From assembly GCA_024277195.1 (NCBI GenBank), contig JAJRVS010000015.1, positions 1 to 64,000 of the forward strand: a stretch of 64,000 nucleotides of DNA. The letters are read 5' to 3'. Below are positions 38,108 through 53,876 of the stretch, piece by piece; positions within the stretch are counted from its first letter, which is position 1, and each line of letters begins with the position of its first letter. This DNA comes from Verrucomicrobiota bacterium. GTDB taxonomy: Bacteria > Verrucomicrobiota > Verrucomicrobiia > Verrucomicrobiales > DEV007. Under the pieces are notes generated by a model, which was not told the DNA's origin, did no database searches, and saw only the letters and a program-made list of their open reading frames with translations. The position numbers and the translations under genes are program-made.

Positions 38108-39289
38108 ATGAAATTGAAAAACATGGGACAAGGAAAGTGGAGAGATCTACTTTGCGGAGTTGGTTTGGTTTTGATCGCCAATACGATTTCTGCAGGTGAG
38201 GACGCGCCGATGGCTTTGAAACCTGAAGAGGCGCAGAGCAAAGCAGCTTGGTCGTATCTCAATCTTTGGGATCATACTACTTTGTATTCAAGCAAAGAGG
38301 CTTCTTTCATCCAGGAGGTCAAAATCATTGGCAGGTATCATGGCCAATATTATTACGATTCTTCTGACCGCGGGCATTCAGCAGGGTGGGAAAACCGTCG
38401 TTTTCGTCCTGGTTTCGCGGTGAAGTTTTGGAATAAATTCAAGTTCCAAGGTGAAATCAATCTGGCAGATGTGAGAAATCTGGATGGCCCATTTTTTAAA
38501 AGTTGGGACAACCTTTATTTACAGTGGGACCCTACTAAAAAACTTCGTTTTAAGTTTGGTCGGCAAAAATCGGATACGACTCAAGAGCGTTATGTCTCTT
38601 CCAAGTATATTATAACGGCGGAACGTTCCCTGCTGGTTAATCAGTTGACCTCAGATAAAATTTTGGGAGCTTCGTTTAGGTATAAATTTAATGATAAATT
38701 TTCTCTGCAAAGCGGGATTTATTCTTCGCCACTGGATAATAAGCTTAATAGTTATGAAGGAAGCGGAGGCGTAGCGGCTTTATTTAAGTTTGGTTATAAG
38801 ATGAATGAACATACTCAGGCTTACCTGGATTATTGGTATGCGGATCGTCAAGGTGGTGCACTAGAGATAAAGGATTACAAACATGTGCTCTCTTTGAATA
38901 CGACAAATAAGTGGGATGATGTCGGCCTCAATACCGACCTGATTTATGGCAGCGGAACGGGTACGAGGGATGGGCAAGAAGTGTTTGGTTTGATGTTGAT
39001 GCCTTGGTATCAAATCACAGATAAATTGCAAGGAGTCTTCAGATATCAGTTAGGATCTTCTAATTCTGCAAACGGGATGAGTTTGTCGAAGCGTTACGAC
39101 CGTTTAGCTGTTACCGATGGTGGAGGAACTAGAGGGGATTTGTATAATGCGTTCTATCTCGGCATGAACTACAAAATCAACGGAGATAAGCTGAAGTTGA
39201 TGGCGGGTATTGAGTATGGGCGCATGACTGGTGGGGTAGATAGTTTTTCCGGAGTGACCCCTTGGGTAGGGGTCCGGACTTTCTGGTAG
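38108..39289 (+). CDS. Outer-membrane porin (phosphate-selective porin O/P-like)
   Basis: 393-residue beta-barrel protein with a signal peptide (cleavage near ISAGED). The body alternates hydrophobic and polar residues in strands, contains the FKFGRQKSDTTQERYVSS segment similar to the GRQK/GRFK region of the Porin_O_P family, and ends in an aromatic residue (GVRTFW), as outer-membrane barrels do. A clear paralogue lies at 42789-43994 (both share WSYLNLWDHT, GRQKS, ITDGGG/VTDGGG and the DGFSG/DSFSG ending). The position next to carbonic anhydrase, SulP and Dab genes suggests an anion or bicarbonate entry channel; this is inference. Confidence 0.82.
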   Translation: MKLKNMGQGKWRDLLCGVGLVLIANTISAGEDAPMALKPEEAQSKAAWSYLNLWDHTTLYSSKEASFIQEVKIIGRYHGQYYYDSSDRGHSAGWENRRFRPGFAVKFWNKFKFQGEINLADVRNLDGPFFKSWDNLYLQWDPTKKLRFKFGRQKSDTTQERYVSSKYIITAERSLLVNQLTSDKILGASFRYKFNDKFSLQSGIYSSPLDNKLNSYEGSGGVAALFKFGYKMNEHTQAYLDYWYADRQGGALEIKDYKHVLSLNTTNKWDDVGLNTDLIYGSGTGTRDGQEVFGLMLMPWYQITDKLQGVFRYQLGSSNSANGMSLSKRYDRLAVTDGGGTRGDLYNAFYLGMNYKINGDKLKLMAGIEYGRMTGGVDSFSGVTPWVGVRTFW

Positions 39290-39327
39290 CAGTTCCTTGG
39301 GGATACCCTTACTTTTGGTAATGGAGC

Positions 39328-39360
39328 GGGGTCTTTCCGAAAGGGAAGGCCCTACTTTTG
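39328..39360. terminator. Bidirectional terminator between porin and beta-carbonic anhydrase
   Basis: A ten-pair stem (GGGTCTTTCC at 39329-39338, GGGAAGGCCC at 39343-39352, two G-U pairs) with a GAAA loop, followed by TACTTTTG. It lies between two convergent genes. Confidence 0.55.
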
Positions 39361-39369
39361 TTGAGTAGT

Positions 39370-39990
39370 TCAGTCTTTGGAGAAAAACTCCACTTCTCCG
39401 GAAGCAACGTCATAGATGGCTCCAACGATTTCGATTTGTCCTTCGCTTTCAAGTTCGGCCAAAATGGGACTTTCTGCTTGGATTCGCTCGATCGACAGTT
39501 TTACATTTTGAATGGCGACGCTTTCGATTTCGGCTTCGCTCATCGGGTCTTCGCCAGTTCTGATGAAATTAACAGCGGGTCTGACTTTACTGAGCAAGGC
39601 CGTGATGTTGCCCAGTTCAACGTTGTTGCAAGCGGCGTTGACGGCACCGCATTTGGTGTGTCCTAGGACAACTACGATTTTTGAACCGGCGACCTTACAG
39701 GCATATTCCATTGAGCCGAGCACATCCTCATTGACGATGTTACCGGCGACGCGGACGCTGAATACGTCTCCGATCCCCTGATCGAATACGAGTTCTGCGG
39801 GAACCCGTGAATCGATGCAAGACAGAATCACGGCAAAGGGGTATTGCCCTTGGCTGGTGGCGAGAACCTGTTCTTGTAGATTGCGCTGAACCTTTAGGTT
39901 CTGGACAAAACGTTGATTTCCCTCCTGTAGAATTCGGTGGGATTCTTTTGGAGTTAGGTTCTGTTGGGTTTCTTGGGTTTGTGTTCTCAT
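39370..39990 (-). CDS. Beta-class carbonic anhydrase
   Basis: 206-residue cytoplasmic zinc enzyme interconverting CO2 and bicarbonate. Zinc ligands Cys58, His111 and Cys114 (SCIDSR and GHTKCGA) and the Asp60-Arg62 dyad are all present, with GNIVNEDVLGSMEYA between them. Length is normal for the class. It ends the same-strand pair SulP-carbonic anhydrase (6 bases apart), an arrangement known from SulP-type bicarbonate transporters, and so supports bicarbonate rather than sulfate as the transporter's substrate. Confidence 0.94.
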   Translation of the reverse strand: MRTQTQETQQNLTPKESHRILQEGNQRFVQNLKVQRNLQEQVLATSQGQYPFAVILSCIDSRVPAELVFDQGIGDVFSVRVAGNIVNEDVLGSMEYACKVAGSKIVVVLGHTKCGAVNAACNNVELGNITALLSKVRPAVNFIRTGEDPMSEAEIESVAIQNVKLSIERIQAESPILAELESEGQIEIVGAIYDVASGEVEFFSKD

Positions 39991-39996
39991 GGCTGA

Positions 39997-41592
39997 TTAT
40001 TTTTTGTCGTTGGCTAATCTGAAATGTTGAATTGGGCTGTCTTGTTTGTGGTCGTAGAGGTCAATGATGGCCACTTCGATATTTCGGTTTTTGGAGCTAA
40101 TCACAAAGTCTTCGATGATCTCGACCACGTCGTAGTGGATGAATTTGGTATTGCTGGCATCGATTTCCACCGAAGTGCCATTTGGAATTTGTTCCAGAGT
40201 TTTGAGGATGGAGGCTTTGTTCAGAAAGGTGACATCTTCGGAGAGAATGATGCGGAGATTCTCTTTGCCTTTCAGGTTTTCTTTTTGCATTTTGAAAGGC
40301 ACGCTGAAGTTGTTTTTCAGAATGACAAATATAGCAATCGCCATGCCCATCGCGATGCCAGTGAGCAGGTCGGTGAATACGATGCCGATCACGGTGATGG
40401 TGAAAGGGATGAACTGTCCGAGCCCGTCTTGATACATCTTTTTGAAGAGCGCGGGTTTGGCGAGTTTGTAACCCACGACTAGTAGTATAGCGGCCAGAAC
40501 TCCGAGCGGTATGAGGTTTAGTATTTTGGGGATGGCGAGCACACTGATCAGTAGCAAGATGCCGTGGATGATGGCCGAGGCTTTGGTTTTGCCACCGGAT
40601 TGGTGGTTGGCCGAGCTTCTGACGATGACCTGGGTCAGGGGCAGTCCGCCTACAAAACCAGCGATGATGTTGCCGACTCCCTGGGCTTTCAGTTCCCGGT
40701 TGGTAGGGGTGATCCTTTTTAATTTGTCTAGTTTGTCCGAGGCTTCGACACAAAGCAGGGTTTCAAGACTGGCAACGACAGCGATCACAATCCCGGTGGT
40801 GTAAACGGCCGGGTTGGACAGTGCGCTGAAATCGGGCAGGGCAAAATTACCGATAAAGCTGTTGAAACTATCAGGGACAGGCACTTTTACCAAGTGATCG
40901 ACGCTGATCGCAAGATTGGAGCTGGTAGCAAAAACTTTGTTTAAAATAATCCCTACGATAACCACTACCAGAGGGCCTTGAACCAGTTTGGTGAATTTTA
41001 ATTTTTTGAAAAAAGCGGTTTCCCAGAGAATGAGAAGGATTAACGAGGTCACGGATACGATGAGAACTCCTGGGCTGATAAATTGCAGCATATGTGACAA
41101 TTCTTCGAGAGTATTGTGGCCGTCCCCCTGTTGGAAAGCGAAGTCACCTTCGGAGACTTTGTCGTAACCCAGGGCATGGGGGATTTGTTTTAGAAAAATA
41201 ATGACTCCGATTCCGGCCAGCATGCCGTGGATCACCGAAGATGGAAAAAAGTAGGCAATGATGCCGGCTTTCGCAAAACCCATGATCAATTGGATGATGC
41301 CGGCGATGATCACAGCGACGAGGAATATCTCAAAGGCTCCCAGTTCGGTGATCGCGTTCAGAACAATCACGGCTAGACCTGCTGCTGGACCACTCACTCC
41401 CAGAGGCGATCCACTGAGAGAACCAACGATCAGCCCTCCGATAATACCGCTGATCAGTCCGGCAAATAGAGGCGCGCCTGATGCCAACGCAATGCCCAGA
41501 CATAGAGGCAGAGCGACTAAAAAAACCACCAAACCAGCTGGAAGATCATCTTTTAAGTGTTTCAGTGGGCTTAAATTGTTGTCAGAATTCAT
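39997..41592 (-). CDS. SulP-family anion transporter, probable bicarbonate transporter
   Basis: 531-residue inner-membrane protein with the SulP core of about 14 helices (residues 1-410; PAGLVVFLVALPLCLGIALASG, SGPAAGLAVIVL) and a C-terminal STAS domain (about 430-520; VEIDASNTKFIHYDVVEII). SulP members carry sulfate, bicarbonate or other anions, and BicA is a sodium-dependent bicarbonate carrier of this family. The directly following beta-carbonic anhydrase and the nearby DabAB genes favour bicarbonate. It is divergent from a LysR regulator 127 bases away. Confidence 0.92.
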   Translation of the reverse strand: MNSDNNLSPLKHLKDDLPAGLVVFLVALPLCLGIALASGAPLFAGLISGIIGGLIVGSLSGSPLGVSGPAAGLAVIVLNAITELGAFEIFLVAVIIAGIIQLIMGFAKAGIIAYFFPSSVIHGMLAGIGVIIFLKQIPHALGYDKVSEGDFAFQQGDGHNTLEELSHMLQFISPGVLIVSVTSLILLILWETAFFKKLKFTKLVQGPLVVVIVGIILNKVFATSSNLAISVDHLVKVPVPDSFNSFIGNFALPDFSALSNPAVYTTGIVIAVVASLETLLCVEASDKLDKLKRITPTNRELKAQGVGNIIAGFVGGLPLTQVIVRSSANHQSGGKTKASAIIHGILLLISVLAIPKILNLIPLGVLAAILLVVGYKLAKPALFKKMYQDGLGQFIPFTITVIGIVFTDLLTGIAMGMAIAIFVILKNNFSVPFKMQKENLKGKENLRIILSEDVTFLNKASILKTLEQIPNGTSVEIDASNTKFIHYDVVEIIEDFVISSKNRNIEVAIIDLYDHKQDSPIQHFRLANDKK

Positions 41593-41719: not shown

Positions 41720-42658
41720 ATGGACTGGCTCAATTATCATCATCTTTATTATTTCTGGGTGGCGGCGAAGGAGGGAAGCATTGGTAAAGCCAGTCAAATG
41801 TTGAATTTATCGCAACCGACGGTGAGTACGCAGATCAAGGCCTTGGAGGCCAATTTGGAAGAACCTTTGTTTGTGAGGGGGCGTGGTGGGCTGACTTTGA
41901 CAGATTCTGGTCGTCTGGCTTTTGATTATGCGGATGAAATTTTCACTTTAGGCAAGGAGCTCAGGGAAAGTCTGAAGGGGATTGGTTCGGATCGCCCGGC
42001 TCGATTGAGGGTGGGGATATCGGACGTATTGCCAAAATTGGTTTCCCATCGCCTGCTCGCTCCAGCATTGAAGATGGACAAGCCGGTTCGTTTGATTTGT
42101 GAGGAGGGGAAAACGGAGGAATTACTGACCGATCTGTCTATTCAACGTTTGGATCTGGTTATTGCAGATGCCCCGATTGGGGGGGCTGTCAGGATCAAGG
42201 CTTTTAATCATTTTCTTGGATCGAGTGGGGTGACTTTTTTTGGCACGAAAGATTTGGCGCATCGCTACCGGCAAGGTTTCCCAGATTCCATTTCAGACGC
42301 GCCGTTGTTGGTGCCGTCAGAGGGAACGCTGTTACGTCGATCCATTGACCGTTGGATGTCAGCGAAGGGATACATTCCTCTGATTCGCGCTGAATTTCAT
42401 GACAGTGCGCTGCTCAAGGAATTTGGCAGTGATGGCGCGGGTTTGTTTGTCGGGCCGACTATCATCGAGGATGAGATTTGCAGGGAATACAATGTCGAAA
42501 AAGTGGGGCGGACGGATGAAATATTGGAGTCTTTTTACGCGATCACAGTGGAGCGCAAGCTGCATCACCCTATCGCCCTGGCTATTACCCGGACAGCACG
42601 GAAAAAGCTGTTTGGTGGGGAGGGCGCGGTCAAATCGGAAAAAAAGAGGCGAGATTAA
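41720..42658 (+). CDS. LysR-family regulator, NhaR-like
   Basis: The start at 41720 (MDWLNYHHLYYFWVAAKEGS) matches the NhaR N-terminus; the frame opens earlier at 41678. The winged helix-turn-helix spans about residues 5-65 (SQPTVSTQIKALE is the recognition region), followed by a substrate-binding domain to about residue 295. NhaR of E. coli senses sodium and activates nhaA. Here the gene sits divergently from a SulP transporter and directly upstream of a porin gene in the inorganic-carbon island, so it is the best candidate regulator of the island, perhaps linking sodium to sodium-dependent bicarbonate uptake. Length 312 is normal. Confidence 0.92.
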   Translation: MDWLNYHHLYYFWVAAKEGSIGKASQMLNLSQPTVSTQIKALEANLEEPLFVRGRGGLTLTDSGRLAFDYADEIFTLGKELRESLKGIGSDRPARLRVGISDVLPKLVSHRLLAPALKMDKPVRLICEEGKTEELLTDLSIQRLDLVIADAPIGGAVRIKAFNHFLGSSGVTFFGTKDLAHRYRQGFPDSISDAPLLVPSEGTLLRRSIDRWMSAKGYIPLIRAEFHDSALLKEFGSDGAGLFVGPTIIEDEICREYNVEKVGRTDEILESFYAITVERKLHHPIALAITRTARKKLFGGEGAVKSEKKRRD

Positions 42659-42722: not shown

Positions 42723-42788
42723 TATTTGTAATGATTCATGATAGAGGCTGATTACCTTGACGTGAACAAAGCAAATAGTGGTGAGAAA

Positions 42789-43994
42789 ATGAGAGAAAAG
42801 AGAGTAAAAACGATAAAAACCAGACGAGTCGGACAGACGGTGTGGGCTTCTCTGTGTTGGCTTTTGTTGCTGGGGAACGTGGTTTTTGCGGGTACGGAGG
42901 CTTCAAAAAACGTTGAGACTATGACTGGGGAGGGCGCTGTTTCGGATCAGTCCTGGTCTTATCTGAACTTGTGGGATCATACCGTCTGGTATGACAATGA
43001 GGAGAACCCTTTTTTACAGAAGGTTACTTTTATAGGTCGTTTTCACGGTCAAGGTTATTACGTTGACTCGGATCGTGGCAGTGCCACCGGCTGGGAGGAA
43101 AGACGAATTCGACCTGGATTCAAGATTGCTTTTCTGAGTCAATTCACTTTGGTGTTGGAGGCGAATATTAAAGGAGTAGATAATCTTCACGGAGAGTATC
43201 TCAAGGGGTGGGACAACTTCTATATCGACTGGAAGCCAAATAAGGATTTAAAGTTCCGAGTAGGGCGTCAGAAGTCCAATACTTCCCGGGAACGATTCAC
43301 CTCTTCGAGATTCGTATTGCCCTTTAACCGTTCACGTTTGGTGCTGCAGTCGACGGTAGACAAGATTATGGGCGCGTCGGTGTTTTATAATATTACAGAC
43401 AAAGTGACTATTCAGACCGGTATTTTTTCAGATTTGCTCGACGGAAAATTTAAGGAGTTTGAAAATAGTGGTAGTGTCGCGGCCCTGTTGAAGTTGGGTT
43501 ATAAAGTAAATGAGAATACCCAGACCTACCTTGACTACTGGTGGTCGGATCCTAAAATTGGATCTAGGGAGATGCGCCCTTATGAGCATGTGGTGTCGCT
43601 GAATTCAAAAAGCAAATGGGACGGTTATGGCTTGATCACAGATATGCTCTATACCGTGGGAGCAGCTGAAAGAGATGGGCAAAGTGCTTTCGGGATTGTG
43701 TTTATGCCGTGGGTTGAGCTCACTCCAAAACTCAGGGGAGTATTTCGTTATCAATTAGCCGCATCGAATTCGGACACGGGAATAGCTCTGCAAAAGCGCT
43801 ATGAAACCGAGGCGATAACGGACGGCGGAGGAAAAGAGGGGAGAATCTACAATGCGTTTTACACGGGACTGGATTACCGGCTTAATGGTGAACGCCTGAA
43901 AGTGATGATCGGATCGGAGTATTCCAACATGAGTGGAGGTGCGGATGGTTTTTCCGGGTGGACTCATTTTGCCGGAGTTAGAACTTGGTGGTAG
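42789..43994 (+). CDS. Outer-membrane porin, paralogue of the upstream porin
   Basis: 401-residue barrel protein; the start at 42789 (MREKRVKTIKTRR) is chosen because GGTGA lies five bases upstream and it begins a signal peptide ending at VVFAGTEA. It matches the first porin across the whole length (WSYLNLWDHT, GRQKSNTSRERFTSSRF, TYLDYWW, ITDGGG, DGFSG, C-terminal RTWW). Porin_O_P-like membership is inferred from length, strand pattern and the GRQK region. It is the first of three same-strand genes with DUF2490 and alpha-carbonic anhydrase, so it probably brings substrate to the periplasm where the anhydrase acts. Confidence 0.82.
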   Translation: MREKRVKTIKTRRVGQTVWASLCWLLLLGNVVFAGTEASKNVETMTGEGAVSDQSWSYLNLWDHTVWYDNEENPFLQKVTFIGRFHGQGYYVDSDRGSATGWEERRIRPGFKIAFLSQFTLVLEANIKGVDNLHGEYLKGWDNFYIDWKPNKDLKFRVGRQKSNTSRERFTSSRFVLPFNRSRLVLQSTVDKIMGASVFYNITDKVTIQTGIFSDLLDGKFKEFENSGSVAALLKLGYKVNENTQTYLDYWWSDPKIGSREMRPYEHVVSLNSKSKWDGYGLITDMLYTVGAAERDGQSAFGIVFMPWVELTPKLRGVFRYQLAASNSDTGIALQKRYETEAITDGGGKEGRIYNAFYTGLDYRLNGERLKVMIGSEYSNMSGGADGFSGWTHFAGVRTWW

Positions 43995-44045: not shown

Positions 44046-44744
44046 ATGGCAAAACATTTCATTATTCTTGTGGTCTTGCTTGTTTGCTCGACCGCACAAA
44101 AAGGGCTGGGGCAAGTCGATGGTGGTCAACTTGGCTCGTGGTATATGTATTTCTGGGATGCTCCGATCAAAGATTCCCAATGGGGATTTCAAGGGGACTT
44201 TCAGCATCGCAGTTGGGGCGTTCCCCAGGATCTCGAACAGCGTTTGTTGCGTGGGGGGATCACCTATCGACCGGTCGACACAAAACTGAAGTTCACTTTA
44301 GGATCGGCTTATGTGTTAAGTGGTGATTTCGGTGAAAGTGATTCGAACAGTGAGGAGTGGCGGATTTATCAAGAGTTGCTTTTTCCACAAAAGCTAGGCA
44401 GCCGCTTTCATTTTAATCATCGTTTTCGTTTTGAGCAACGATTTGTGGAGAATCAGGATTTCAGAACACGTCTCAGGTATAATATATTCCTGAACATTCC
44501 GTTGAACATGAAGGAGATTGATGAGGGAGCTGTTTATCTGGCTTTTTACAATGAGTTGTTTCTCAATATGCAGAAAAACATTGGCAATGGGAAAAGTGTG
44601 GATCTTTTTGACCGCAACCGCGTATATGGAGGTTTAGGTTATGCCGTTAAGAAAAACTTTAGAGTGCAGTTTGCCTACATGCAGCAAACCACCAGTGATT
44701 GGAACAAGGGGCAGTTGCAGTTTAGTATTCATCATAAATTTTAA
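44046..44744 (+). CDS. DUF2490 outer-membrane-type protein
   Basis: 232 residues with a signal peptide (about 1-22) and a beta-strand-rich body ending in HHKF, as in small outer-membrane barrels. Motifs LGSWYMYFWDAPIKDSQWGF, RFHFNHRFRFEQRF and LRYNIFLNIPLN identify DUF2490. Function unknown for the family. A paralogue with the same motifs lies at 52338-53084 on the other side of the Dab genes, so one DUF2490 gene accompanies each half of the island. Confidence 0.88.
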   Translation: MAKHFIILVVLLVCSTAQKGLGQVDGGQLGSWYMYFWDAPIKDSQWGFQGDFQHRSWGVPQDLEQRLLRGGITYRPVDTKLKFTLGSAYVLSGDFGESDSNSEEWRIYQELLFPQKLGSRFHFNHRFRFEQRFVENQDFRTRLRYNIFLNIPLNMKEIDEGAVYLAFYNELFLNMQKNIGNGKSVDLFDRNRVYGGLGYAVKKNFRVQFAYMQQTTSDWNKGQLQFSIHHKF

Positions 44745-44759: not shown

Positions 44760-45554
44760 ATGCGTTTTTTAATAGCTGTCGTTTTGTTTGTTGTATCTTG
44801 TGGCCCGGCCGAAAAGGTTAAATCTGAGCATTATTATTTTAAAAAAACAGCTCACCACCCTGATGCTCACTGGAGTTACGAAGGAGCTACTGGGCCTGAA
44901 TACTGGGGCAAGTTGAGTGCCAGTTATAGTTTGGCGGATACTGGGAAAAAGCAATCTCCTGTGAATATTGATACCAGTAAGCTGGTGGCGGACAAACTGC
45001 CGGAGCTCATTTTTAGCTACCGCAGCAAAGAGCGGCCGGATTTCATTAATAATGGCCATACTTTGCAACATCAGCAGGAGGAGGATGGCAGTGAGATTGA
45101 AGTAGCAGGCAAGCATTACAAGTTGGAGCAGTTTCATCTGCATTCACCCAGTGAACACACTGTAGACGGAAAATATTTCCCGGTTGAGCTGCACATGGTG
45201 CATAAAGCGGAAGATGGAGAAGTTGCCGTTCTTGCTATTTTCTATAAAGCCGGCGAGTCGTCACAAGCTTTGAAGTATGTGGCGCACGCAAAATTACCGG
45301 AGAAAGAGGGGGATAAAACGGTGATGAAACAAGGGATTCGTTTGAGAGATTTGGTGCCTGCCCAGCCGGATTATTATACTTATTCAGGATCATTTACCAC
45401 TCCACCCTGTAGCGAGGGGGTGAAGTGGTTTATTCTGAAACAAGCGCTTGAAGCCGAGGAGAAACTGCTAGATACGATAGCAGAAATACTCAAGCACAAT
45501 AATCGTCCCGCCCAGGACTTGGAGGGGCGGGAGGTACATGGTTTTGGGGGTTAG
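44760..45554 (+). CDS. Alpha-class carbonic anhydrase, lipoprotein
   Basis: 264-residue zinc enzyme, probably anchored in the periplasm: the N-terminus is a lipoprotein signal with lipobox FVVSC (Cys14). Zinc ligands are His126, His128 (EQFHLHSPSEH) and His145 (ELHMVH). The proton-shuttle His100 in NNGHTLQ and the TTPPCSEGV segment are present. It would convert CO2 and bicarbonate in the periplasm, complementing the cytoplasmic beta enzyme. It ends 15 bases from the convergent dabB gene. Confidence 0.95.
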   Translation: MRFLIAVVLFVVSCGPAEKVKSEHYYFKKTAHHPDAHWSYEGATGPEYWGKLSASYSLADTGKKQSPVNIDTSKLVADKLPELIFSYRSKERPDFINNGHTLQHQQEEDGSEIEVAGKHYKLEQFHLHSPSEHTVDGKYFPVELHMVHKAEDGEVAVLAIFYKAGESSQALKYVAHAKLPEKEGDKTVMKQGIRLRDLVPAQPDYYTYSGSFTTPPCSEGVKWFILKQALEAEEKLLDTIAEILKHNNRPAQDLEGREVHGFGG

Positions 45555-45569: not shown

Positions 45570-47444
45570 TTACGAGGAGCGGAAAGCAAAGTCGTGGTAG
45601 TCGCTTTTGTGCTGTCCTAAAAACAGGCGTGAATAGATCCGGTAAACGACCAAACCATCCAAGACCAGGCAGAGGACTAACATGATAACCAGGGGGAATT
45701 GGTTTTCGTAAATGTGTCCTAACATCAGGTCTTCACCAATGAAGGTGGGGGTGATGGGGAATCCTGATATGCCTAGGCAGGCTAATACAAAAACAAACGC
45801 GAGTCTGGGGAATTCATAGCAGTGGCCATGGAATTGATCGAGGCTTATGTTTTTCCCTTTTGATTTGAGTCTGTAAATAACAAGCAGGCCAACGATACCT
45901 GAAACAAAAATTCCGCTTAGGAAAATATGGACCTGGGAGAAGTCAAACTCTTCGTTGAAGCCAAATGACAGCGAGAGGAATAATTGGCTTAAGATGATAA
46001 GCAACCATGCATTCAAAACTGACTTACGTTTCACGAAGGCTTTGAGGATTAATGAGAAGCTCAATACCGCAAAAATTTCAGGGATGTATTTTATTATTTG
46101 AACGGGAACCATTTCTTTATTGTAAACTCCGGCAAGTCCTAAAAAAAAGATGGGGAAATAAATTGCAAAAACAATTTTAGGGGAAATAAAATTGATCAAG
46201 TTGCCCAGTTTTTTCAGCGGATTCCACAAGAAATTATACATGAAAGTATCGAGGTTGAACTCTTTGATACTGAGAATATACACTGACAATTTCAAGCGAT
46301 CCCAGAACGAATCTTTGCGCTGGGCAGCAGGTGGGGAAAAATTGAAAAACTGGTTATGGATCTTGTAACTCAAGATGGATGGGGAAATAAGCAGTTGGTG
46401 GGTGCGCAGCATGGCATTGCCCACTAGATGGATCATGGCCAGCCAGTACAAACCGAATGATACTTCGATGAACATGAGGCCGATTTGAACCAACGAAGCA
46501 TAGGCTATCTGTGTTTTAATAGTAGATTGAACCTTGGCGGTGAACCCTGACAAGATCACGGTTATCAGACCAATGCCTCCGATGATAAAGTGAAACCAGT
46601 AGTTGCCTACCCATAAGGGCGATATCCGGATCAAAAGAAAAACCCCGATATGCGCCGAGAGTGATCCATAAAAAATAGAACTGGAAGTTGTGGGGCCCTC
46701 CATGGCGCGAGGCAACCATGATGAAAAAGGGAACTGGGCGGATTTGACCATGGCGGCCAGCAAGAACAGCCCAGGGATCAAATATTGATAGAACGGTTCA
46801 TTGTTAATATGATGATGGGAGCTTTCCAGTCCGTGAAGATCCCTGAAATTGATACTGTAGCCAAAATAATGATGGCTCAACCAGATCCCTAAAAGGATCG
46901 CCACATCAGCAACTCGATAGAGGGAGACCACCTTCAGGGCATTTTTTACCGGCAGATAGCGGTCGCGGTAAAAGCCGATCAGGAAAAAAGAAGTGACACC
47001 GAGGATTTCCCATCCTAGGAAAATGGTCTCCAGATTACCTGCCATCAATACCAGTAACAGACCGAAGTAGAAAAATTTGATGTTATTAAAAAACCGCTTA
47101 AAACCTTTTTCCCGATGCATGTAATTCTTGCTGAACATGACAATGATGCCGGTTAAGAAAGTTGCGGTTAATAAATAGACCAGACTGTAGCCATCGATCA
47201 AAAAGCTGATCGAAAAGTCAGCCTTTCCGGTGTGGTATAAAACCGGGCCTTCTACAAAAATGGGCTGGAATCCATTCCAAACCCAGATGATGGCCACGAC
47301 AACCAGAATCAGGTAATCAATCGCTACACCTGTTATAGATGTGGTGAAGATGGCTTTTTCGTTGTCATTGGGAAAAAGATAACTGATGATCAATGATAAA
47401 AAAGGAATGAGCAGCAAGGCATATAATAAATAACTTATGTTCAT
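45570..47444 (-). CDS. dabB: DabB-type membrane subunit of a DAB inorganic-carbon transporter
   Basis: 624-residue integral membrane protein related to NuoL/MrpA antiporter subunits. It has the FLGWEILGVTSFFLIGFYRDR block (the membrane Glu) and KSAQFPFSSWLPRAMEGPT, the lysine-bearing helix typical of proton-conducting subunits, with about 14 predicted helices. Standing alone with DabA and without other complex I or Mrp subunits, it fits DabB, the proton-channel partner of the two-subunit DAB (DABs accumulate bicarbonate) pump, rather than NADH dehydrogenase. The gap to dabA is 6 bases, supporting one transcript and a complex. Confidence 0.88.
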   Translation of the reverse strand: MNISYLLYALLLIPFLSLIISYLFPNDNEKAIFTTSITGVAIDYLILVVVAIIWVWNGFQPIFVEGPVLYHTGKADFSISFLIDGYSLVYLLTATFLTGIIVMFSKNYMHREKGFKRFFNNIKFFYFGLLLVLMAGNLETIFLGWEILGVTSFFLIGFYRDRYLPVKNALKVVSLYRVADVAILLGIWLSHHYFGYSINFRDLHGLESSHHHINNEPFYQYLIPGLFLLAAMVKSAQFPFSSWLPRAMEGPTTSSSIFYGSLSAHIGVFLLIRISPLWVGNYWFHFIIGGIGLITVILSGFTAKVQSTIKTQIAYASLVQIGLMFIEVSFGLYWLAMIHLVGNAMLRTHQLLISPSILSYKIHNQFFNFSPPAAQRKDSFWDRLKLSVYILSIKEFNLDTFMYNFLWNPLKKLGNLINFISPKIVFAIYFPIFFLGLAGVYNKEMVPVQIIKYIPEIFAVLSFSLILKAFVKRKSVLNAWLLIILSQLFLSLSFGFNEEFDFSQVHIFLSGIFVSGIVGLLVIYRLKSKGKNISLDQFHGHCYEFPRLAFVFVLACLGISGFPITPTFIGEDLMLGHIYENQFPLVIMLVLCLVLDGLVVYRIYSRLFLGQHKSDYHDFAFRSS

Positions 47445-47450: not shown

Positions 47451-50000
47451 TTATTTTGAATAAACGTAGGTTGGGATGTTTTCCTCGGTGGCATCGAGGA
47501 TGTGGTTGGTTTTCATCTCCGGCCTTTCTTTGATCACCCTGTTGATGTCATCGGTGAGTAAGACTTCTTTCAGAGGAGTGTATTTTTCGAAGTTGCCATT
47601 GCGGAATAAATACAGATTGCTGTCTTCAGGAGAAATGGAGATCAGATGAATCCAGCCTTTATCAAACCAGTCATAAATGGCGGCTGAAGACTTGATGATC
47701 TTGAGAATGACCTCTGGACGATGCTCTATCATCATCAATAACCGAACCGGGTCATGATTCTCGATCATTTGCAATGGCAGGCCTGTTCGGATATCACCAT
47801 CACTGCTATTGGTCACGCCGATGAGTCCGGTTACATTGTGAGGCAACTTTGTTCCTGCGCCCATTTTTTCAATGTCCATTCTTGAAAAATAATACTCCAG
47901 GTTGATACCGCCACAAACCCCAGGCAGTGGCCCAAGAACCTGGGCCAATACTTGCCCTTCGGGATCAGTGCTGCAATCATACGATTGTAAAAATGCGCGA
48001 CGATCTAGAAACAGGCCTTTGATTTTATCTATCGAACCTATGTGGCACAGGGCATTGGTGCCGTGCCCTAATTCCGGGCGCGGTTCAAAATAGGAGACGG
48101 ACCGCTGTTTGACCTGTTTGCGAATATTCTTCAGATCTTTGTTGATGTTGATGGAAGAAAAGCGCCGACCTCGTTCCTTTGCATTGTGATCAAGTGCCGT
48201 TTCAAAGACCGTCTTGTTGAGAGTATGTGCTTTTTCATGGCTGACTGAGAGCAGGTCTTCGTCATAAAAGGCTACTTCATCACTGGCGGTGTCATGCATG
48301 GCGGCAATGAAGCGGGTGGTTTGTGGAATGACCAGACCTCTCTCAACCAAAATTTTTCGGACTTCTTCATGATTGGCCATGAATGCATAAACACGGGCGT
48401 TGACTGCGCCGGGCCTTCCACTGCAAGCCCCGCAATCATGGGCTCCATGGTGGGGATTGTTCGCACTGCTGCTACCGTGGGCGACAATGTAAACAATGGG
48501 CGCGAAATCCTGGATCAATCCGATTCCCTTTAAAATAGGTTCGACTACGTCGGCCATTTCGTGGACTTGATAACCGACTTGAACCCCATTCTCGATTTCG
48601 TCCGGGCTCTGGTTTTCGATTAACAACTTGCCATTCACGTCCATGTGCGCAAAAGCATCGGATATGTCCGCTTGCATCTTCGGGTTGGCCAAATCCAAGG
48701 TCATTTTGAATCCTGCCAACAAACCAATGGAGAAAACAGAGGCTACTCCGTGGAAAAAAGAATGGGTTTTGTTGTTGTGAAAAATCTCATGTTTCCTGAC
48801 ATGGTTGGATTCCACCTCTTTGATCAGATGAGTGGGTTCGAGGGCTACCGGACAATTTTTGTCATAGAATTTTCCGCCGAAGGGCTGGAAGTAAATAGCC
48901 GCACCGAAAAATCCAGGCGCTCCATAGGTGATGCATTGTGGGTCAGCACTCTCCAGATGTCTGCGGTAGGAGCACTCCCGGTCATCCACACAAAACACCG
49001 CTTGAAAACTCGCCGTGCTTTGATTTGAAGTGCTGCCGTTTTTTGCTGAATAGACCACTCCCGACAGAACATCATCGTAATAATCCCATTCAAATGCTTC
49101 CTGCCAGAGTTGCAGTATTTGTTCCAGTTCGTCATGCTTTACCGGGGATAGGTAATCCATGGGAACTTCGGTGAAATCGAGCGCCAGGGGATTCCATTTG
49201 TTTCCCAAGGTTTTATCAAGAGCGTCGATTTCCAACAACAGTTCGAGCAGAATCAGATCCTGAAATTTGACATTCTTTTTGTAAAAGATGCTGTCGGGAT
49301 TTTCTTCAATGACAGCCACAATGCCACTCCAGCCTTTGTGTGAGAATTGTTGGTCAAAGAGGTAGTTTTTGTAGTAATCAGGATTGCCTACTACGATAGC
49401 TAGCAGTTTTTCTATGGATAGATCGTTTTCGAAGAGCAGTTGCTTGGCTCTTTTTGATTTAAAAAAACTGGTAAAGCTGTTTTTTTCCAGGATGCGAATG
49501 GCCTCGATGAGGCCTTCGGTTTCAAAGGGGAAGTGCCACAGCGCGATTCCCTGATCCAGAAAGCTACCCAGGATTCGGAACAGCAGTGGTTGAACCAGGT
49601 TGTCGAGGCCGATTTTGTATTGTTTTTTCCATTCTTTCCTCAGTTTGCCAACTCGTGGGTTATAGTGGTGCTTGAGATCCGCGTTCAGCATCTTATCCAG
49701 ATACTCTTCGATCTTGTTGGGGCCTTTGCTGCGCTCGATAACCTGCTCAATAATTTCTTTCCGGATCCTGCCTTGGTGGTGCAGTTTGCGATAATTATTG
49801 ATATTGAAGGTGACGTGGAAGCCAAATATCTTCGAGGCACTGAATATGCCGTCGAAGAATTCCTTGTCCTGAAACGAATGCAATGAGTTGTGGTGCACAA
49901 AATCCTTCAAAGTAGATTGTGCCGGCAGATAGTGCTTCAACTGGTGAAGCACTTCGCTTTCATTGAACAGGCTTTTTTTCATTTCTGTAGGATTTAGCAT
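47451..50000 (-). CDS. dabA: DabA (DUF2309) catalytic subunit of a DAB inorganic-carbon transporter
   Basis: 849-residue protein of the DUF2309 family, a distant beta-carbonic-anhydrase relative. The four zinc-site residues known from the characterised DabA of Halothiobacillus are all found with the same spacing: Cys337 and Asp339 (FCVDDRECSYRRHLE), His508 (IVAHGS) and Cys523 (HDCGACSGRPGAVNARV); the pairs are two and fifteen residues apart as expected. DabA hydrates CO2 vectorially in the cytoplasm, driven by the ion gradient through DabB. Its start overlaps the SulP stop by seven bases, showing co-translation with a SulP transporter. Family length fits. Confidence 0.95.
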   Translation of the reverse strand: MLNPTEMKKSLFNESEVLHQLKHYLPAQSTLKDFVHHNSLHSFQDKEFFDGIFSASKIFGFHVTFNINNYRKLHHQGRIRKEIIEQVIERSKGPNKIEEYLDKMLNADLKHHYNPRVGKLRKEWKKQYKIGLDNLVQPLLFRILGSFLDQGIALWHFPFETEGLIEAIRILEKNSFTSFFKSKRAKQLLFENDLSIEKLLAIVVGNPDYYKNYLFDQQFSHKGWSGIVAVIEENPDSIFYKKNVKFQDLILLELLLEIDALDKTLGNKWNPLALDFTEVPMDYLSPVKHDELEQILQLWQEAFEWDYYDDVLSGVVYSAKNGSTSNQSTASFQAVFCVDDRECSYRRHLESADPQCITYGAPGFFGAAIYFQPFGGKFYDKNCPVALEPTHLIKEVESNHVRKHEIFHNNKTHSFFHGVASVFSIGLLAGFKMTLDLANPKMQADISDAFAHMDVNGKLLIENQSPDEIENGVQVGYQVHEMADVVEPILKGIGLIQDFAPIVYIVAHGSSSANNPHHGAHDCGACSGRPGAVNARVYAFMANHEEVRKILVERGLVIPQTTRFIAAMHDTASDEVAFYDEDLLSVSHEKAHTLNKTVFETALDHNAKERGRRFSSININKDLKNIRKQVKQRSVSYFEPRPELGHGTNALCHIGSIDKIKGLFLDRRAFLQSYDCSTDPEGQVLAQVLGPLPGVCGGINLEYYFSRMDIEKMGAGTKLPHNVTGLIGVTNSSDGDIRTGLPLQMIENHDPVRLLMMIEHRPEVILKIIKSSAAIYDWFDKGWIHLISISPEDSNLYLFRNGNFEKYTPLKEVLLTDDINRVIKERPEMKTNHILDATEENIPTYVYSK

Positions 50001-51589
50001 GTTCTTTTATGGGCTGCCAGGTCATGCCCCGATAGTGGGGTTAGTTTATCAAGGCCTAGAATATTCACCGTTCCTCCATCTTCTTCATAATCGTGTTTGA
50101 AGTGGTGAAGGTTGTCCAAGAAGGAGTGATCGACCAATTTCACACTGTCTGAGAGCTCAATGTCGATATGTTTTTTACCAGGAATACTGTCGATGTGTTT
50201 TTTAACGCCTAAATAGTTGGAGAAGAGGGCCGCGTTGTTGATGGTGATGGTGTAGTTTTCAGAATCACTATTTTCCACATTCACCGAGGCTTTGAATAGA
50301 TGCCGGGCACGAACACCCCGCACGGTATGGATCACCAGTTTCAACAGGATGCCGGCGGCAATCCCTAACAACAGATCTTCTGCGAGAGTGACGATGATCG
50401 TAGTTGAAAATATGGCCAGTTGGTCTTTGCCGATTTTCGACATGTGTAGGAACTCCTTTGGGTGGGCCAGATTGATGCCGACGGAAATAAGCATGGCGGC
50501 CAAAGCTGCATTGGGGATCATTTCCAGGACGGGGTAGGCCACTAATACGAAGACCAAAAGAAATACACCGTGGAAAAAGTTGGCCCAGCGGGTTTTTGCC
50601 CCGTTTTTGATGTTGGCCGAACTTCTGGCTACTTCAGAGATCATGGGGTAACCGCCGAGGAAGGCTGAAAGCGTGTTGCCAATCCCGATCGCAATCAAAT
50701 CCCGATTTGGGGAGGACTTTCTTTTGTAAGGGTCGAGCAGATCGATCGCTTTGACCGTCAATAGGCTTTCCAAGGTGCCCACCAAAGACAACATGATTAC
50801 ATATTTTATGAATACGCCGGTGTGGCTGACACCTTCGAAACTCGCATTGATGGCAAGACTGTCTATCAGGCTGCCCACCTTGACTAGGGTGTAAACCGGT
50901 TCAGTGGTGGTGAAATTCATGAAGAGGCCTGCAGGAATCGCAAACAGGAGAACGATGAGAGGGGCGGGGAATTTGGAGAGGATCCGGTGTTTGATGCGTG
51001 GCCATCCCAGCATGATGGCGAGACTGATCAGGCCGACAAGAGTGGCACGCGGGTCAAGGTTCGAGATAAATTTCGGGATGTCGTAGAACAATTCAAAGGG
51101 CCCTTCACCTTTACTCAAGCTGGGGTTGTCATTTAATAAAACGGGGATTTGCTTGGCGATAATGATCAGTCCGATCGCAGCCAACATGCCGTGAATGGCG
51201 GACAGGGGAAAGAAATCCACGTATTTGCCGAGCTTGGTGACCCCAAATATTATTTGCAGGATTCCAGCCGCCACCATGGCGCCTGCGGCCATTTTCCATC
51301 CTTCAACCCCGCCGCCAAATTCCGCCACCGCTCCAGCGACGATCACGATGAGTCCTGCTGCCGGGCCTTTGATGGATAATTTGCATCCAGTGAAAAAGGT
51401 AATTAGGACACCGCCGATAATCGCTGAGATAACTCCCATCAGAGGGGGGATGCCAGAGGCTTGGGCGATGCCTAGACTTAGTGGCAGCGCGAGTAAAAAG
51501 ATGCTGAATCCTGAGCTCAAGTCAGAGCTGAAATTTTCCTTGAGTCCTTCCAACCAGTCTTTGGGGGGTGTTGTTTTTGTAGCGTTCAT
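49994..51589 (-). CDS. SulP-family anion transporter in operon with dabAB
   Basis: 531-residue inner-membrane protein, a paralogue of the SulP at 39997-41592. Core helices include GFSIFLLALPLSLGIAQASG and SIKGPAAGLIVIV; the C-terminal STAS-like domain (about 435-520) has IELSDSVKLVDHSFLDNL. Its stop overlaps the dabA start (ATGCTAA), so it is part of the Dab operon. Substrate is inferred to be bicarbonate from this coupling; sulfate cannot be excluded. The 216 bases upstream contain three small hairpins and an element shared with another leader in the island. Confidence 0.92.
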   Translation of the reverse strand: MNATKTTPPKDWLEGLKENFSSDLSSGFSIFLLALPLSLGIAQASGIPPLMGVISAIIGGVLITFFTGCKLSIKGPAAGLIVIVAGAVAEFGGGVEGWKMAAGAMVAAGILQIIFGVTKLGKYVDFFPLSAIHGMLAAIGLIIIAKQIPVLLNDNPSLSKGEGPFELFYDIPKFISNLDPRATLVGLISLAIMLGWPRIKHRILSKFPAPLIVLLFAIPAGLFMNFTTTEPVYTLVKVGSLIDSLAINASFEGVSHTGVFIKYVIMLSLVGTLESLLTVKAIDLLDPYKRKSSPNRDLIAIGIGNTLSAFLGGYPMISEVARSSANIKNGAKTRWANFFHGVFLLVFVLVAYPVLEMIPNAALAAMLISVGINLAHPKEFLHMSKIGKDQLAIFSTTIIVTLAEDLLLGIAAGILLKLVIHTVRGVRARHLFKASVNVENSDSENYTITINNAALFSNYLGVKKHIDSIPGKKHIDIELSDSVKLVDHSFLDNLHHFKHDYEEDGGTVNILGLDKLTPLSGHDLAAHKRTC

Positions 51590-51639
51590 TGTATTTTGTA
51601 AAAAGAGTTCTTCTGTTATTTGTGAATTTGGTGAGTAGC

Positions 51640-51712
51640 GGCATCACCACTTGCTGGTGAAATGCCGCGGATAAGCTTGCAGGAAACAAGCGCAGGGCGT
51701 GAAGTGCCCTGG
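51640..51712 (-). promoter_or_regulatory. Cluster of three hairpins in the leader of the SulP-dabAB operon
   Basis: Consecutive inverted repeats: 51640-51668 (CGGCAT/ATGCCG plus inner CACCA/TGGTG), 51676-51692 (GCTTG/CAAGC) and 51694-51712 (CAGGGC/GCCCTG). They lie 51 to 123 bases before the SulP start on the mRNA, with no T-run, so they could be a structured leader rather than a terminator. Confidence 0.45.
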
Positions 51713-51757
51713 AGAGGGGAATCGATTATGGTTTGAGTGCCGGTGAGCCTATGGTCA

Positions 51758-51779
51758 GGCTTGTGGCAATCAGACGAGC
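51758..51779. promoter_or_regulatory. Leader element shared with the DUF2490 leader (copy 1)
   Basis: GGCTTGT, then GCAA and AGACGAGC, with nearly the same spacing, also occur at 53164-53183. Each lies in the non-coding stretch between a small membrane-protein gene and the next gene of the operon. Confidence 0.4.
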
Positions 51780-51805
51780 ATCTACCCTTTCCTCAGTGTG
51801 AGGGT

Positions 51806-52159
51806 TTAACAGAAGTGGAGCTTCAAATTACAATATAAGATGTAATAGGGGAAATTCGCCAGGGCTTGAGCTTGGGCATGAGGGCGGCGCAAGTGTTGAG
51901 TGCGGCCGGAATAAACCGGAACCCTCAAGCCGGAATCTGCCAGTGACTGTGGAAACTTATCGCCGCCGTCACCGCCACCGGATTTTAAGCGTTGGCCACC
52001 GGATGAATCAGAGTGGTCTATTTCAAGCTCTTTGGACTCGATCGATTCTTCCTCTATTTCGGCTTGAGGCAGATATTGCGGCGCTTCATTTACGATCAAG
52101 AAGGACCCCGCAATGATGAAAACCAGAAAAATCCAGCTATGTGCTTTTAGTAATTTCAT
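51806..52159 (-). CDS. Small single-helix protein with conserved YYILYCN C-terminus (paralogue 2)
   Basis: 117 residues, unrecognised. One N-terminal membrane helix (SWIFLVFIIAGSFLIV), an acidic segment with SKELEIDHSDSS, then a basic low-complexity part and the ending PYYILYCNLKLHFC. A paralogue at 53286-53633 shares HxWIFL(V/I), PQAEI, SKELEI(D/G), SDSS, LKSG and PYYILYCNxKLxxC. The protein is encoded upstream of the SulP-dabAB operon. The two terminal cysteines, absent elsewhere in this copy, could bind metal or form a disulfide; the topology (N-terminal anchor) would place them in the periplasm if the helix is uncleaved. Confidence 0.65.
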   Translation of the reverse strand: MKLLKAHSWIFLVFIIAGSFLIVNEAPQYLPQAEIEEESIESKELEIDHSDSSGGQRLKSGGGDGGDKFPQSLADSGLRVPVYSGRTQHLRRPHAQAQALANFPYYILYCNLKLHFC

Positions 52160-52225: not shown

Positions 52226-52292
52226 CTAGAGAAACCATACAAGGGACATGAGTTATTAGCAGTGGATCGCATGGCTTTCAAATTTTTTCTTT

Positions 52293-52320: not shown

Positions 52321-52337
52321 TGGTAAGAAAACCAGCT

Positions 52338-53084
52338 TTAGAAACTATGGTGAACACTGAACTGCATTTGGTTTTTGCTCCAGTCAGGAGTGGTGTGGTG
52401 CATGATGCCGAGTTGCACCTTGAACTGTTTGTTAATCGCATATCCAAGGGCAGCGTAGGCCCAGTTGCGGTCAAAAAATCCCACGGACTTGCCATTGCCA
52501 ATATTGCTTTGGCCATTGAAGAACACTTCGTTGTAAAAGGCTAGATAGACCGTGCCACTTTCGATGGAGGTGTTGTTGAGAGGAATGTTCAGGAATAAAT
52601 TGTAGCGGTAACGGGTGCGGAAGTTTTGATTACCGATGAAGCGCTGCTCAAAGCGAAAACGGTGGGTAAAATAAAAGCGGTTGCCTATTTTTTTCGGGAT
52701 CAGGGCTTCCTGGTAGATTCGATGTTCCCAGGAAGTCGAATCATCATTACCAAAAACTCCGGACAAAAAATCGGCATAACCCATGGTGAGTTTGATATCT
52801 GTCTCGGGCAGGGTGTAAGTGAGTCCGCCGCGTAAAATACGCTGTTCGAAGTCATCAATGGCATTCCAACTGCGGTATTGGAAGTCGCCCTGAAATCCCC
52901 AGCGAGAGTCCTTGATGCTGGTATTCCAGAAATACATGTACCAAGTTCCTAGTTGATCTTCGTCGACTTGGCTGAAGAGTTTTGCGGGAGTGATGAAGGT
53001 GAATAGAATGGTGGCAAGAAGGCAATATTTTTTCAGTGATGTTTCAAGCTGAAGTTTGGGTCGAATTATTTTTATAGAATGCAT
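52338..53084 (-). CDS. DUF2490 outer-membrane-type protein, second paralogue
   Basis: 248 residues from the ATG at 53084; a hydrophobic segment at about residues 19-38 serves as signal peptide (the frame itself opens at 53138 but without signal-like sequence). It shares with the DUF2490 protein at 44046 the motifs LGTWYMYFWNTSIKDSRWGF, QRILRGGLTY, HRFRFEQRF and RYNLFLNIPLN, plus the HHSF ending of outer-membrane proteins. Function unknown. It is encoded between the two small membrane-protein paralogues upstream of the Dab operon. Confidence 0.86.
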   Translation of the reverse strand: MHSIKIIRPKLQLETSLKKYCLLATILFTFITPAKLFSQVDEDQLGTWYMYFWNTSIKDSRWGFQGDFQYRSWNAIDDFEQRILRGGLTYTLPETDIKLTMGYADFLSGVFGNDDSTSWEHRIYQEALIPKKIGNRFYFTHRFRFEQRFIGNQNFRTRYRYNLFLNIPLNNTSIESGTVYLAFYNEVFFNGQSNIGNGKSVGFFDRNWAYAALGYAINKQFKVQLGIMHHTTPDWSKNQMQFSVHHSF

Positions 53085-53163
53085 ATTTTGTAAAAAAGTG
53101 GTTTGTATTGGGTGAGTAGCTGGTGCATTTGTTGCCACCCAGGGGTGAGTATGCAGCGCTTGT

Positions 53164-53183
53164 GGCTTGTCGCAAAGACGAGC
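53164..53183. promoter_or_regulatory. Leader element shared with the SulP leader (copy 2)
   Basis: Second copy of GGCTTGT...GCAA...AGACGAGC, in the 200-base leader before the DUF2490 start. Both leaders also share GGTGAGTAGC and a TTTTGTAAAAA stretch nearer the following gene. Confidence 0.4.
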
Positions 53184-53285
53184 GGGCTTGAAAAAAAAGG
53201 CACGTCAAATGGCAAGAAGCCAAGCGTGTCGATCAACAGGCGTGGGTGCCAAGGTAGCTATTCCTGGATCCGCAGTGGTGAAACT

Positions 53286-53633
53286 TCAGCAGGAGGGCAG
53301 TTTCGGATTACAGTATAAGATGTAATAGGGGGAGTGATCCAGAGGGTGAGGCAGAGTTCGTAATCGAAGCAGTTTTACCTCGCGATTGAAAGCCGGTGCT
53401 GTCTGCTCACTGGAATTCACCAGTGAGGGAGGCAGGTCATTCCCTCCGTCTCCCGATTTCAGGTGGCGGTCTGCGGATGAATCCGATTGGCCGATTTCGA
53501 GTTCTTTCGAATCGTTGCAGCACTCATCTATCTCGGCCTGAGGTGAAAAGAGTTGAGAGCTGCCATCGATCAAACAAGAGCCTGCCAGGATCAGGATGAG
53601 AAAAATCCAGCGATGTGATTTCAACCATTTCAT
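53286..53633 (-). CDS. Small single-helix protein with conserved YYILYCN C-terminus (paralogue 1)
   Basis: 115 residues from the ATG at 53633 (MKWLKSHRWIFLILILAGS); an earlier in-frame start at 53684 would add a charged extension before the helix. Composition and order match paralogue 2: membrane helix, PQAEIDECCNDSKELEIG, SDSS, LKSGDGG, a variable basic section, and PYYILYCNPKLPSC at the end. Extra cysteines occur here (ECC, SC). It is the first gene of the minus-strand run small protein - DUF2490 - small protein - SulP - dabA - dabB. No known family is recognised. Bases 53634-53876 upstream contain only a small AAGCAC/GTGCTT hairpin near 53727. Confidence 0.65.
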   Translation of the reverse strand: MKWLKSHRWIFLILILAGSCLIDGSSQLFSPQAEIDECCNDSKELEIGQSDSSADRHLKSGDGGNDLPPSLVNSSEQTAPAFNREVKLLRLRTLPHPLDHSPYYILYCNPKLPSC

Positions 53634-53876
53634 TCGACGAAATTTCCTAGAGCTGTCTCTGCTTTGTGTTGAGTCTTCATTCATTCACACTTGCGAAAAA
53701 TTGAAAAACTTCAGACAACCTGTTCAAGCACTTAGCGGTGCTTGGGGGGTATTTCAAATTATTTTGTCATTTTGCAAGTGAGAATGGCGCGAATCGGCTA
53801 GACTGATTGCAGGTAAATCAGTTTACAGGGGGGATGCTACCCTTTACCCGTGCCGTTCAGCTATCACAAAAAAACG

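Follow-up and report, generated by a model that had tools for sequence, protein, structure and literature searches.

The 64,000-nucleotide stretch analysed here (the window; positions 1 to 64,000 of contig JAJRVS010000015.1, assembly GCA_024277195.1) comes from a bacterium of the Verrucomicrobiota, order Verrucomicrobiales, and carries at positions 38108-53684 a block of 13 genes that includes dabA and dabB, the genes of a DAB-type inorganic-carbon complex. The block is a composite of a native half (a LysR regulator, the pair SulP1-beta-carbonic anhydrase (CA) and the trio porin2-DUF2490a-alpha-CA) and an acquired half (small2-DUF2490b-small1-SulP2-DabA-DabB). It probably functions as an inorganic-carbon supply locus for heterotrophic carboxylation. 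In sister genomes, pyruvate carboxylase stands in one run with SulP genes and two CAs, which names a likely consumer in a Gram-negative heterotroph. The repeated DUF2490-SulP-dab linkage in two phyla provides a function hypothesis for an outer-membrane family without one, and the locus bears on the extent of anaplerotic CO2 uptake by heterotrophs.

All 13 genes proposed in an earlier note on this DNA are present as open frames, and the names given there hold. Their order from left to right is porin1(+), beta-CA(-), SulP1(-), LysR(+), porin2(+), DUF2490a(+), alpha-CA(+), DabB(-), DabA(-), SulP2(-), small1(-), DUF2490b(-) and small2(-). Pfam agrees for 11 of the 13, all but small1 and small2, with two Porin_O_P, Pro_CA, two Sulfate_transp, LysR, two DUF2490, Carb_anhydrase, Proton_antipo (DabB) and PF10070 (DabA) matches. 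The block is flanked on the left by a Gfo/Idh/MocA protein and a DUF7133 protein and on the right by an HlyD-AcrB pair. The genome (G000; 5.49 Mb, 422 contigs, 95.55% complete) contains one DabA, the copy in the window.

The native half and pyruvate carboxylase in sister genomes

Three genomes of our collection represent the genus: G000 and the sisters G211 and G007. In G007, one contig (C146, locus L135) encodes Gfo, LysR (89% identical to the window protein), SulP1 (84%), beta-CA (80%), an additional SulP gene and beta-CA gene, and the beginning of pyruvate carboxylase. A second contig (C102, locus L126) encodes the remainder of pyruvate carboxylase, with PYC_OADA, biotin carboxylase C-terminus and biotinyl domains in Pfam, followed by porin2 (72%), DUF2490a (77%), alpha-CA (68%), three other genes, HlyD (81%) and AcrB (92%). 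We take the two contigs as neighbours because their ends share an exact overlap of 141 identical bases. In G211 (contig L134), LysR on the plus strand is followed on the opposite strand by SulP1 (85%), beta-CA (83%) and pyruvate carboxylase, and the contig ends inside the porin gene that comes next; dabA sits on another contig of that genome.

The window and G007 have the same flanks, Gfo at one side and HlyD-AcrB at the other. Relative to G007, the window has LysR-SulP1-beta-CA inverted, an extra porin (porin1) and no pyruvate carboxylase in the run, and its dab operon occupies the place of the three other genes. A profile search of the G007 genome found no dabA. One ancient unit centred on DabAB is ruled out, given that orthologues of porin2, DUF2490a, alpha-CA, SulP1, beta-CA and LysR occur in this dabA-less genome.

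In the window, beta-CA (39370..39990, minus strand), predicted to be cytoplasmic, shows the CxDxR and HxxC motifs, and SulP1 (39997..41592, minus) lies 6 bp upstream of it. The LysR gene (41720..42658, plus; 87-89% to the sister copies) is divergent from SulP1; its coordinates are taken from the ATG, and an upstream TTG at 41678 is a possible alternative start. The description of this regulator as NhaR-like holds as a likeness, although the curated NhaR model is narrowly missed (211.9 versus 219 bits). Porin2 (42738..43994, plus) belongs to Porin_O_P, its G007 counterpart lies directly 3' of pyruvate carboxylase, and a PDB sequence search with porin2 gave no match up to E 1; porin1 (38108..39289, plus) is a paralogue from the same family (50%). 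DUF2490a (44046..44744, plus) is a predicted outer-membrane barrel. Both CAs have a family match and zinc-site motifs in the printed alignments, and the alpha-CA stretch QFHLHSPSEH...ELHMVH aligns to a solved bacterial alpha-CA. The alpha-CA (44760..45554, plus) had been called periplasmic; its export is upheld, while a lipobox-like stretch at the N-terminus (VVSCG, by eye) fits an exported lipoprotein better than a plain periplasmic enzyme.

DabA and the origin of the dab half

The window DabA (47451..50000, minus) matches PF10070 at 670.7 bits and aligns to the solved DabA2 (9rd0) with an E of 2.5e-64 and 221 bits. In the printed alignment, C337, D339, H508 and C523 correspond to C351, D353, H524 and C539 of DabA2, and R341 corresponds to R355; all five are invariant among 17 rows (the window and 16 relatives). 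The four zinc-site residues are thus retained, as the earlier note had stated, and the Cys-Asp-His-Cys site and Asp-Arg dyad of a DAB complex are accompanied by an adjacent DabB (45570..47444, minus) of the NuoL/Mrp kind (PF00361).

The nearest DabA locus, L002, is 92% identical and is the same as the G211 contig; the next relatives are from Bacteroidota, at 76% down to 48%, and other DabA proteins of the window's order are only ~25-34% identical to the window protein. In a quick tree of 57 sequences, which included 12 selected canonical rows of the same order, left out L018 and L098 (the same as L002) and had 14 unresolved inner forks, the window and L002 fell inside 26 Bacteroidota sequences and grouped with L003 and L004 with an SH-aLRT support of 100. 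DabA matches were found in 30 of 395 Bacteroidota genomes and form two score classes, with 11 genomes above 1100 bits (the window type) and the rest at or below 318 bits. From its sequence relationships, the dab half looks foreign and of Bacteroidota origin.

Bacteroidota-like sequence inside a Verrucomicrobiota bin could also arise from a mis-assembled or mis-binned fragment, which we consider very improbable. The separately assembled congener G211 has SulP2-DabA-DabB at 85-93% identity, and this divergence of 7-15% lies within the range of other shared genes (74-94% identity), so contamination is unlikely. The window contig is, moreover, continuous from native genes through dab to the native HlyD-AcrB. 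The guanine-plus-cytosine content is 43-50% across 38-54 kb, versus 54-55% at 34-38 kb and 49-54% at 54-64 kb; it is weak evidence, because 8-34 kb is likewise low (46-53%).

A third, long DabA type (~955-985 residues) occurs in the window's order (L106:7445-10399 and L201-L206). In six of these seven loci it is divergent from a SulP-DUF2490 pair, and in L204 DUF2490 lies downstream of dab.

Genes accompanying window-type dab

The window-type dab loci of Bacteroidota comprised 17 from a pattern scan (L003-L019) and 10 from evenly drawn genomes (L082-L091). SulP was near dab in 24 of these 27, a small protein preceded dabA or SulP-dabA in 19, DUF2490 was present in 13 and beta-CA in 6. Neither SulP nor DUF2490 was found in the nine canonical-type Bacteroidota dab loci opened. 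Locus lengths vary in all these counts, so that absence may mean a position off the contig. In the window, SulP2 (49994..51589, minus) overlaps the start of dabA by 7 bp. In L011 (8345-12526), Pfam shows SulP and DabA fused in one frame of 1393 residues, and frames of similar size in L014 (441-4601) and L016 (8303-12529), fusions of ~1390-1410 residues, match both profiles. Such fusion in a single frame suggests a joint function of this SulP with DabA. The fusions drew our local SulP profile towards DabA, so that it also matched DabA frames, and those matches were ignored.

SulP frames of 720-737 residues with an extra C-terminal stretch of ~200 residues were seen in L003, L005-L010, L013, L084 and L085. 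L007, the one extended SulP scanned with Pfam, has SulP and STAS domains.

DUF2490

Both window copies match PF10677 at 164-165 bits. Within the window's order, 80 of 224 genomes had a DUF2490 match, 65 of them over the cut-off. Of the 43 copies above 140 bits, 23 shared a contig with a dabA no more than 15 kb away, and for 19 of these the distance was 2.5-5 kb; excluding the two window copies, the count is 21 of 41. Of 46 weaker copies (41-88 bits), 2 lay as close to a dabA. These distances combine a DUF2490 search of 224 genomes with a dabA search of 239, sets that are not exactly equal; a few short dabA fragments and three DUF2490 matches (32-39 bits, not on contigs with a listed dabA) were left out. 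In the seven dab-linked DUF2490 loci opened outside the genus (L106, L201-L206), the partner is the third, longer DabA type. SulP was near in 15 of the 20 DUF2490 loci opened in the order, in 9 of the 14 chosen for lacking a close dabA on the contig and in all 6 chosen for having one.

An AlphaFold model of DUF2490b (52338..53084, minus; 60% to DUF2490a; pLDDT 81.6) is a 12-strand barrel whose closest solved barrels are PcoB (Z 18.1), KdgM (15.2) and NanC (14.9). The fold resembles the 12-strand channels KdgM and NanC, but PcoB ranks higher, and a shared barrel fold shows no function. R142, R144, E146 and R148 occupy alternate positions of one strand, with R158 and R160 on the next; across 12 DUF2490 rows, R142, E146, R158 and R160 never vary, and R144 and R148 are conserved in at least 90%. 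Because of the alternation, these charged residues would share one face in the model, probably that of the lumen, which would suit an anion channel. The pores of KdgM and NanC are arginine-lined. DUF2490 is classified as TC 1.B.81, a putative outer-membrane porin family of unestablished function (PMC4827864; papers are cited here by PMC number).

Two further arrangements were noted around this family. Bacteroidota contain one-strand runs of SulP, DUF2490 and beta-CA without dabAB, by profile matches (L207:3851-10167 and L208:4469-10263). Elsewhere in the window's order, LysR proteins 41-45% identical to that of the window occur near SulP-DUF2490 or DUF2490 loci (L190, L196, L200, L206) and are closer to it than the LysR of canonical dab loci (32-38%).

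Small proteins and structured leaders

The genes small1 (51806..52159, minus) and small2 (53286..53684, minus; 49% identical) gave no Pfam or NCBIfam match over a curated cut-off, the best being at chance level (E 0.07). Small1 has an N-terminal hydrophobic helix, an acidic middle and the C-terminal sequence YYILYCNLKL near the stop; its structure prediction yielded no usable model (pLDDT 60.8, pTM 0.24). The family shares the hydrophobic N-terminus, an acidic variable middle and a C-terminal motif resembling Y-[IL]-x-[FY]-[CH]-x-[LW]-K. The distance from the beginning of this motif to the stop is 11-12 residues in 23 of 25 proteins and 16 and 17 residues in the remaining two, and its synonymous codons vary. 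A pattern written after seeing the sequences matched 25 of 1364 frames of 85-220 amino acids in 101 loci, 19 of them ahead of a window-type dabA; some of these loci overlap, and the other matches may repeat the same genes. In the L005/L008 pair, the ratio of nonsynonymous to synonymous substitution (dN/dS) is 0.23 for the small protein, 0.06 for dabA and 0.15 for DUF2490; the value of 0.23 indicates that the small protein is very probably a real gene.

A profile of the family matched 15 of 395 Bacteroidota genomes at E <=0.01, the six best being training rows of the profile, which were not counted. Four of the nine other matches were opened: L180 (527-1015), L181 (9446-9907) and L182 (9423-9821) immediately precede operons that resemble RND efflux systems in order, size and N-termini (by eye, no Pfam run), and L183 (728-1096) is elsewhere. 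The remaining five had an E of 0.001-0.008, two of them with internal stops. The idea that these proteins are dab-specific subunits is rejected as stated, since members also head the RND-like operons.

Between the motif and the following start codon, the sequence is predicted to be more structured than at 75 other gene starts of the same loci (median z ~-2.0 versus -0.2, Mann-Whitney p 1e-6). This test covered 14 of 21 junctions (L014, L015, L086-L089 and L091 were left out), and the loci are related, so that p is not strict. In the window, a structured leader (51590..51805, minus; junction z -5.6) separates small1 from SulP2; Rfam over 37800-54000 gave only mir-463 and sR14 matches, both under gathering scores. 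The leaders before SulP2 (51590-51650) and DUF2490b (53085-53130) are alike by eye just ahead of the start codons, as if a single duplication had copied the small gene with its leader. Regulatory nascent chains such as SecM, VemP and TnaC are characterised by traits of this kind: a tail conserved at a constant distance from the stop, export of the N-terminus, structure in the leader, and a position before unrelated transport genes. By analogy, the small proteins may be candidate leader (nascent-chain) regulators, a lead rather than a result.

Lifestyle

The earlier note saw no RuBisCO gene nearby and asked for a genome-wide search. This absence extends to the whole of G000, in which no match to PF00016 (RuBisCO large subunit) was found, CO2-fixing routes other than RuBisCO not being searched; a control search matched in 5 of 14. 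The RuBisCO that marks the CO2-concentrating mechanism of RuBisCO autotrophs is thus missing from this genome. The Pfam families of the flanking genes (Gfo/Idh/MocA, apiosidase-like, DUF7133) suggest that the bacterium degrades organic matter. We regard it as quite improbable that the bacterium is a hidden autotroph or mixotroph that fixes CO2 by a non-RuBisCO route and uses the locus as an ordinary CO2-concentrating mechanism. The genes of this toolkit are especially abundant in autotrophs (PMC10880623), and RuBisCO was the sole CO2-fixing pathway covered by our search; on the other side stand the missing RuBisCO, the anaplerotic pyruvate carboxylase of the sister runs and the degrader-like flanks.

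A proposed bicarbonate route

We infer substrates, direction of transport, regulation and the role of pyruvate carboxylase as beneficiary in the window strain from the gene context. The Porin_O_P porin and DUF2490 would admit bicarbonate through the outer membrane, and the exported alpha-CA would equilibrate CO2 and bicarbonate outside the inner membrane, across which SulP1 and SulP2 would import bicarbonate. DabAB would act as an energy-coupled pump raising internal bicarbonate, and brings its own SulP, DUF2490 and small leader-like proteins. If DAB2-like, it would take in CO2 and, spending membrane energy, release bicarbonate into the cell; if it acts as proposed for MpsAB, it would take up bicarbonate with Na+. 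The beta-CA would equilibrate bicarbonate inside the cell. The main consumer would be pyruvate carboxylase, which uses bicarbonate (PMC10880623), and probably other biotin carboxylases too. The divergent LysR would regulate the locus and could mediate a switch between SulP1-beta-CA of the native half and the dab genes; since a CA inside the cell drains a bicarbonate pool built up there, the two parts are expected to act under different conditions. The earlier proposal that bicarbonate serves carboxylations other than that of RuBisCO gains from the gene context and can be sharpened to pyruvate carboxylase, with the transport itself still a prediction.

Several observations weigh against this supply route. 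The data are draft assemblies, mostly of metagenome type; the pyruvate carboxylase of G000 is on a separate contig (C185), and the G211 run is cut at the porin, its continuation unseen. Outside the genus, 20 neighbourhoods of pyruvate carboxylase (from 236 genomes) were opened; none contained SulP, CA, porin, DUF2490 or dab, and one contained a LysR-family gene. A general pyruvate-carboxylase linkage is therefore ruled out, and the linkage is recent or genus-specific. Porin, alpha-CA and LysR were absent from all 27 window-type Bacteroidota dab loci. The joint conserved unit of the earlier note thus survives for SulP, DUF2490 and the small protein, which stay with this dab type in Bacteroidota, but not for porin, alpha-CA, LysR and the seldom-linked beta-CA, which in the genus stand with pyruvate carboxylase.

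Within the window's order, 74 of 239 genomes contain DabA. In 20 dab regions of this order (L102-L121), LysR was divergent from dabB in 17, and SulP1-like genes (48-49%) and beta-CA (48-52%) were found near canonical dab in three of the 20 each; SulP1 and beta-CA are therefore not tied to pyruvate carboxylase alone, and LysR, SulP or beta-CA beside dab is not peculiar to the window. Porin, alpha-CA and small protein were found in none of the 20.

Published work adds further difficulties: MpsAB and CA seldom occur together, and a CA in the cytoplasm should drain the accumulated bicarbonate pool (PMC8552792), while the substrate is described in two ways, as CO2 for DAB2 and, in a proposal, as Na+ plus bicarbonate for MpsAB (PMC13144422). 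If DabAB takes CO2, the porins would feed the SulPs and not DabAB. A second SulP of Thiomicrospira pelophila, when tested, failed to rescue CA-less Escherichia coli (PMC12628692). SulP2 itself is far below the curated NCBIfam cut-offs for BicA and DauA (149.6 versus 880 bits for the BicA model NF050096, which does not thereby exclude bicarbonate as substrate). In Bacteroidota, SulP and/or CA were near only 3 of 20 DUF2490 copies, drawn in even steps (every 8th) among the matches listed, the other 17 being without them; an exclusively carbon-linked DUF2490 family is ruled out.

Some of these points suit a different explanation, namely that SulP, porin and DUF2490 move other anions (sulfate, phosphate or dicarboxylates), that only DabAB and the CAs concern CO2, and that the neighbourhood is incidental or reflects pH or Na+ balance. 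The best NCBIfam match of SulP2, below cut-off, is the C4-dicarboxylate transporter DauA; Porin_O_P is named for phosphate channels; the LysR is NhaR-like and DabB is an antiporter relative; Na+ transport by MpsABC has been reported (PMC6689103); and the 17 sampled DUF2490 copies lie away from SulP and CA. We nevertheless consider this explanation unlikely, given that most window-type loci have SulP close to DabA or fused with it, that two CA classes occur in the same runs and that pyruvate carboxylase joins the run in the sisters. The carbon-supply locus remains our preferred interpretation. A bolder version is possible but doubtful, in which some heterotrophs would supply pyruvate carboxylase with inorganic carbon by a dedicated three-compartment line that includes DUF2490 as an outer-membrane channel made for bicarbonate; this line would be rewired between species by exchange of a dab operon, and the small leaders heading its transporter genes might sense export or membrane energy through nascent-chain stalling.

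Comparison with known systems

DAB/MpsAB homologues in heterotrophs and their exchangeability with CA are already in print (PMC6689103, PMC8552792, PMC13144422), as is their service to carboxylations there (PMC6689103, PMC8552792). In E. coli, MpsAB can stand in for CA and sustains growth in air (PMC6689103), CA genes adjoin MpsAB in some Firmicutes (PMC8552792), and the transmembrane finger helices of DabA have been described (PMC13144422). In the open-licence literature searched, we found no paper in which pyruvate carboxylase shares a gene run with SulP and CA, none giving DUF2490 a carbon role or an inorganic-carbon link, none on SulP with anaplerosis and proteorhodopsin, and nothing usable on arrest peptides in Bacteroidetes or on bicarbonate at the outer membrane.

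SulP1 and SulP2 belong to the same family as BicA and SulP-CS of T. pelophila, the latter of which, like DAC, rescues CA-less E. coli (PMC12628692); the window proteins are not near RuBisCO, and their substrate is a prediction. DAB2 of Halothiobacillus neapolitanus shares the zinc ligands and Asp-Arg dyad of DabA and the NuoL/Mrp-type DabB. Its DabA is nevertheless distant, and the window has dabA-dabB with an overlapping SulP upstream (fused in some relatives), adds DUF2490 and a small leader-like protein, and lies in a genome without RuBisCO. MpsAB of Staphylococcus aureus is likewise a DAB-type pair in a heterotroph, providing bicarbonate for carboxylations (PMC6689103, PMC8552792). S. aureus, however, is Gram-positive and without outer-membrane parts, whereas the window combines its DAB pair with two CAs, two SulPs and porins.

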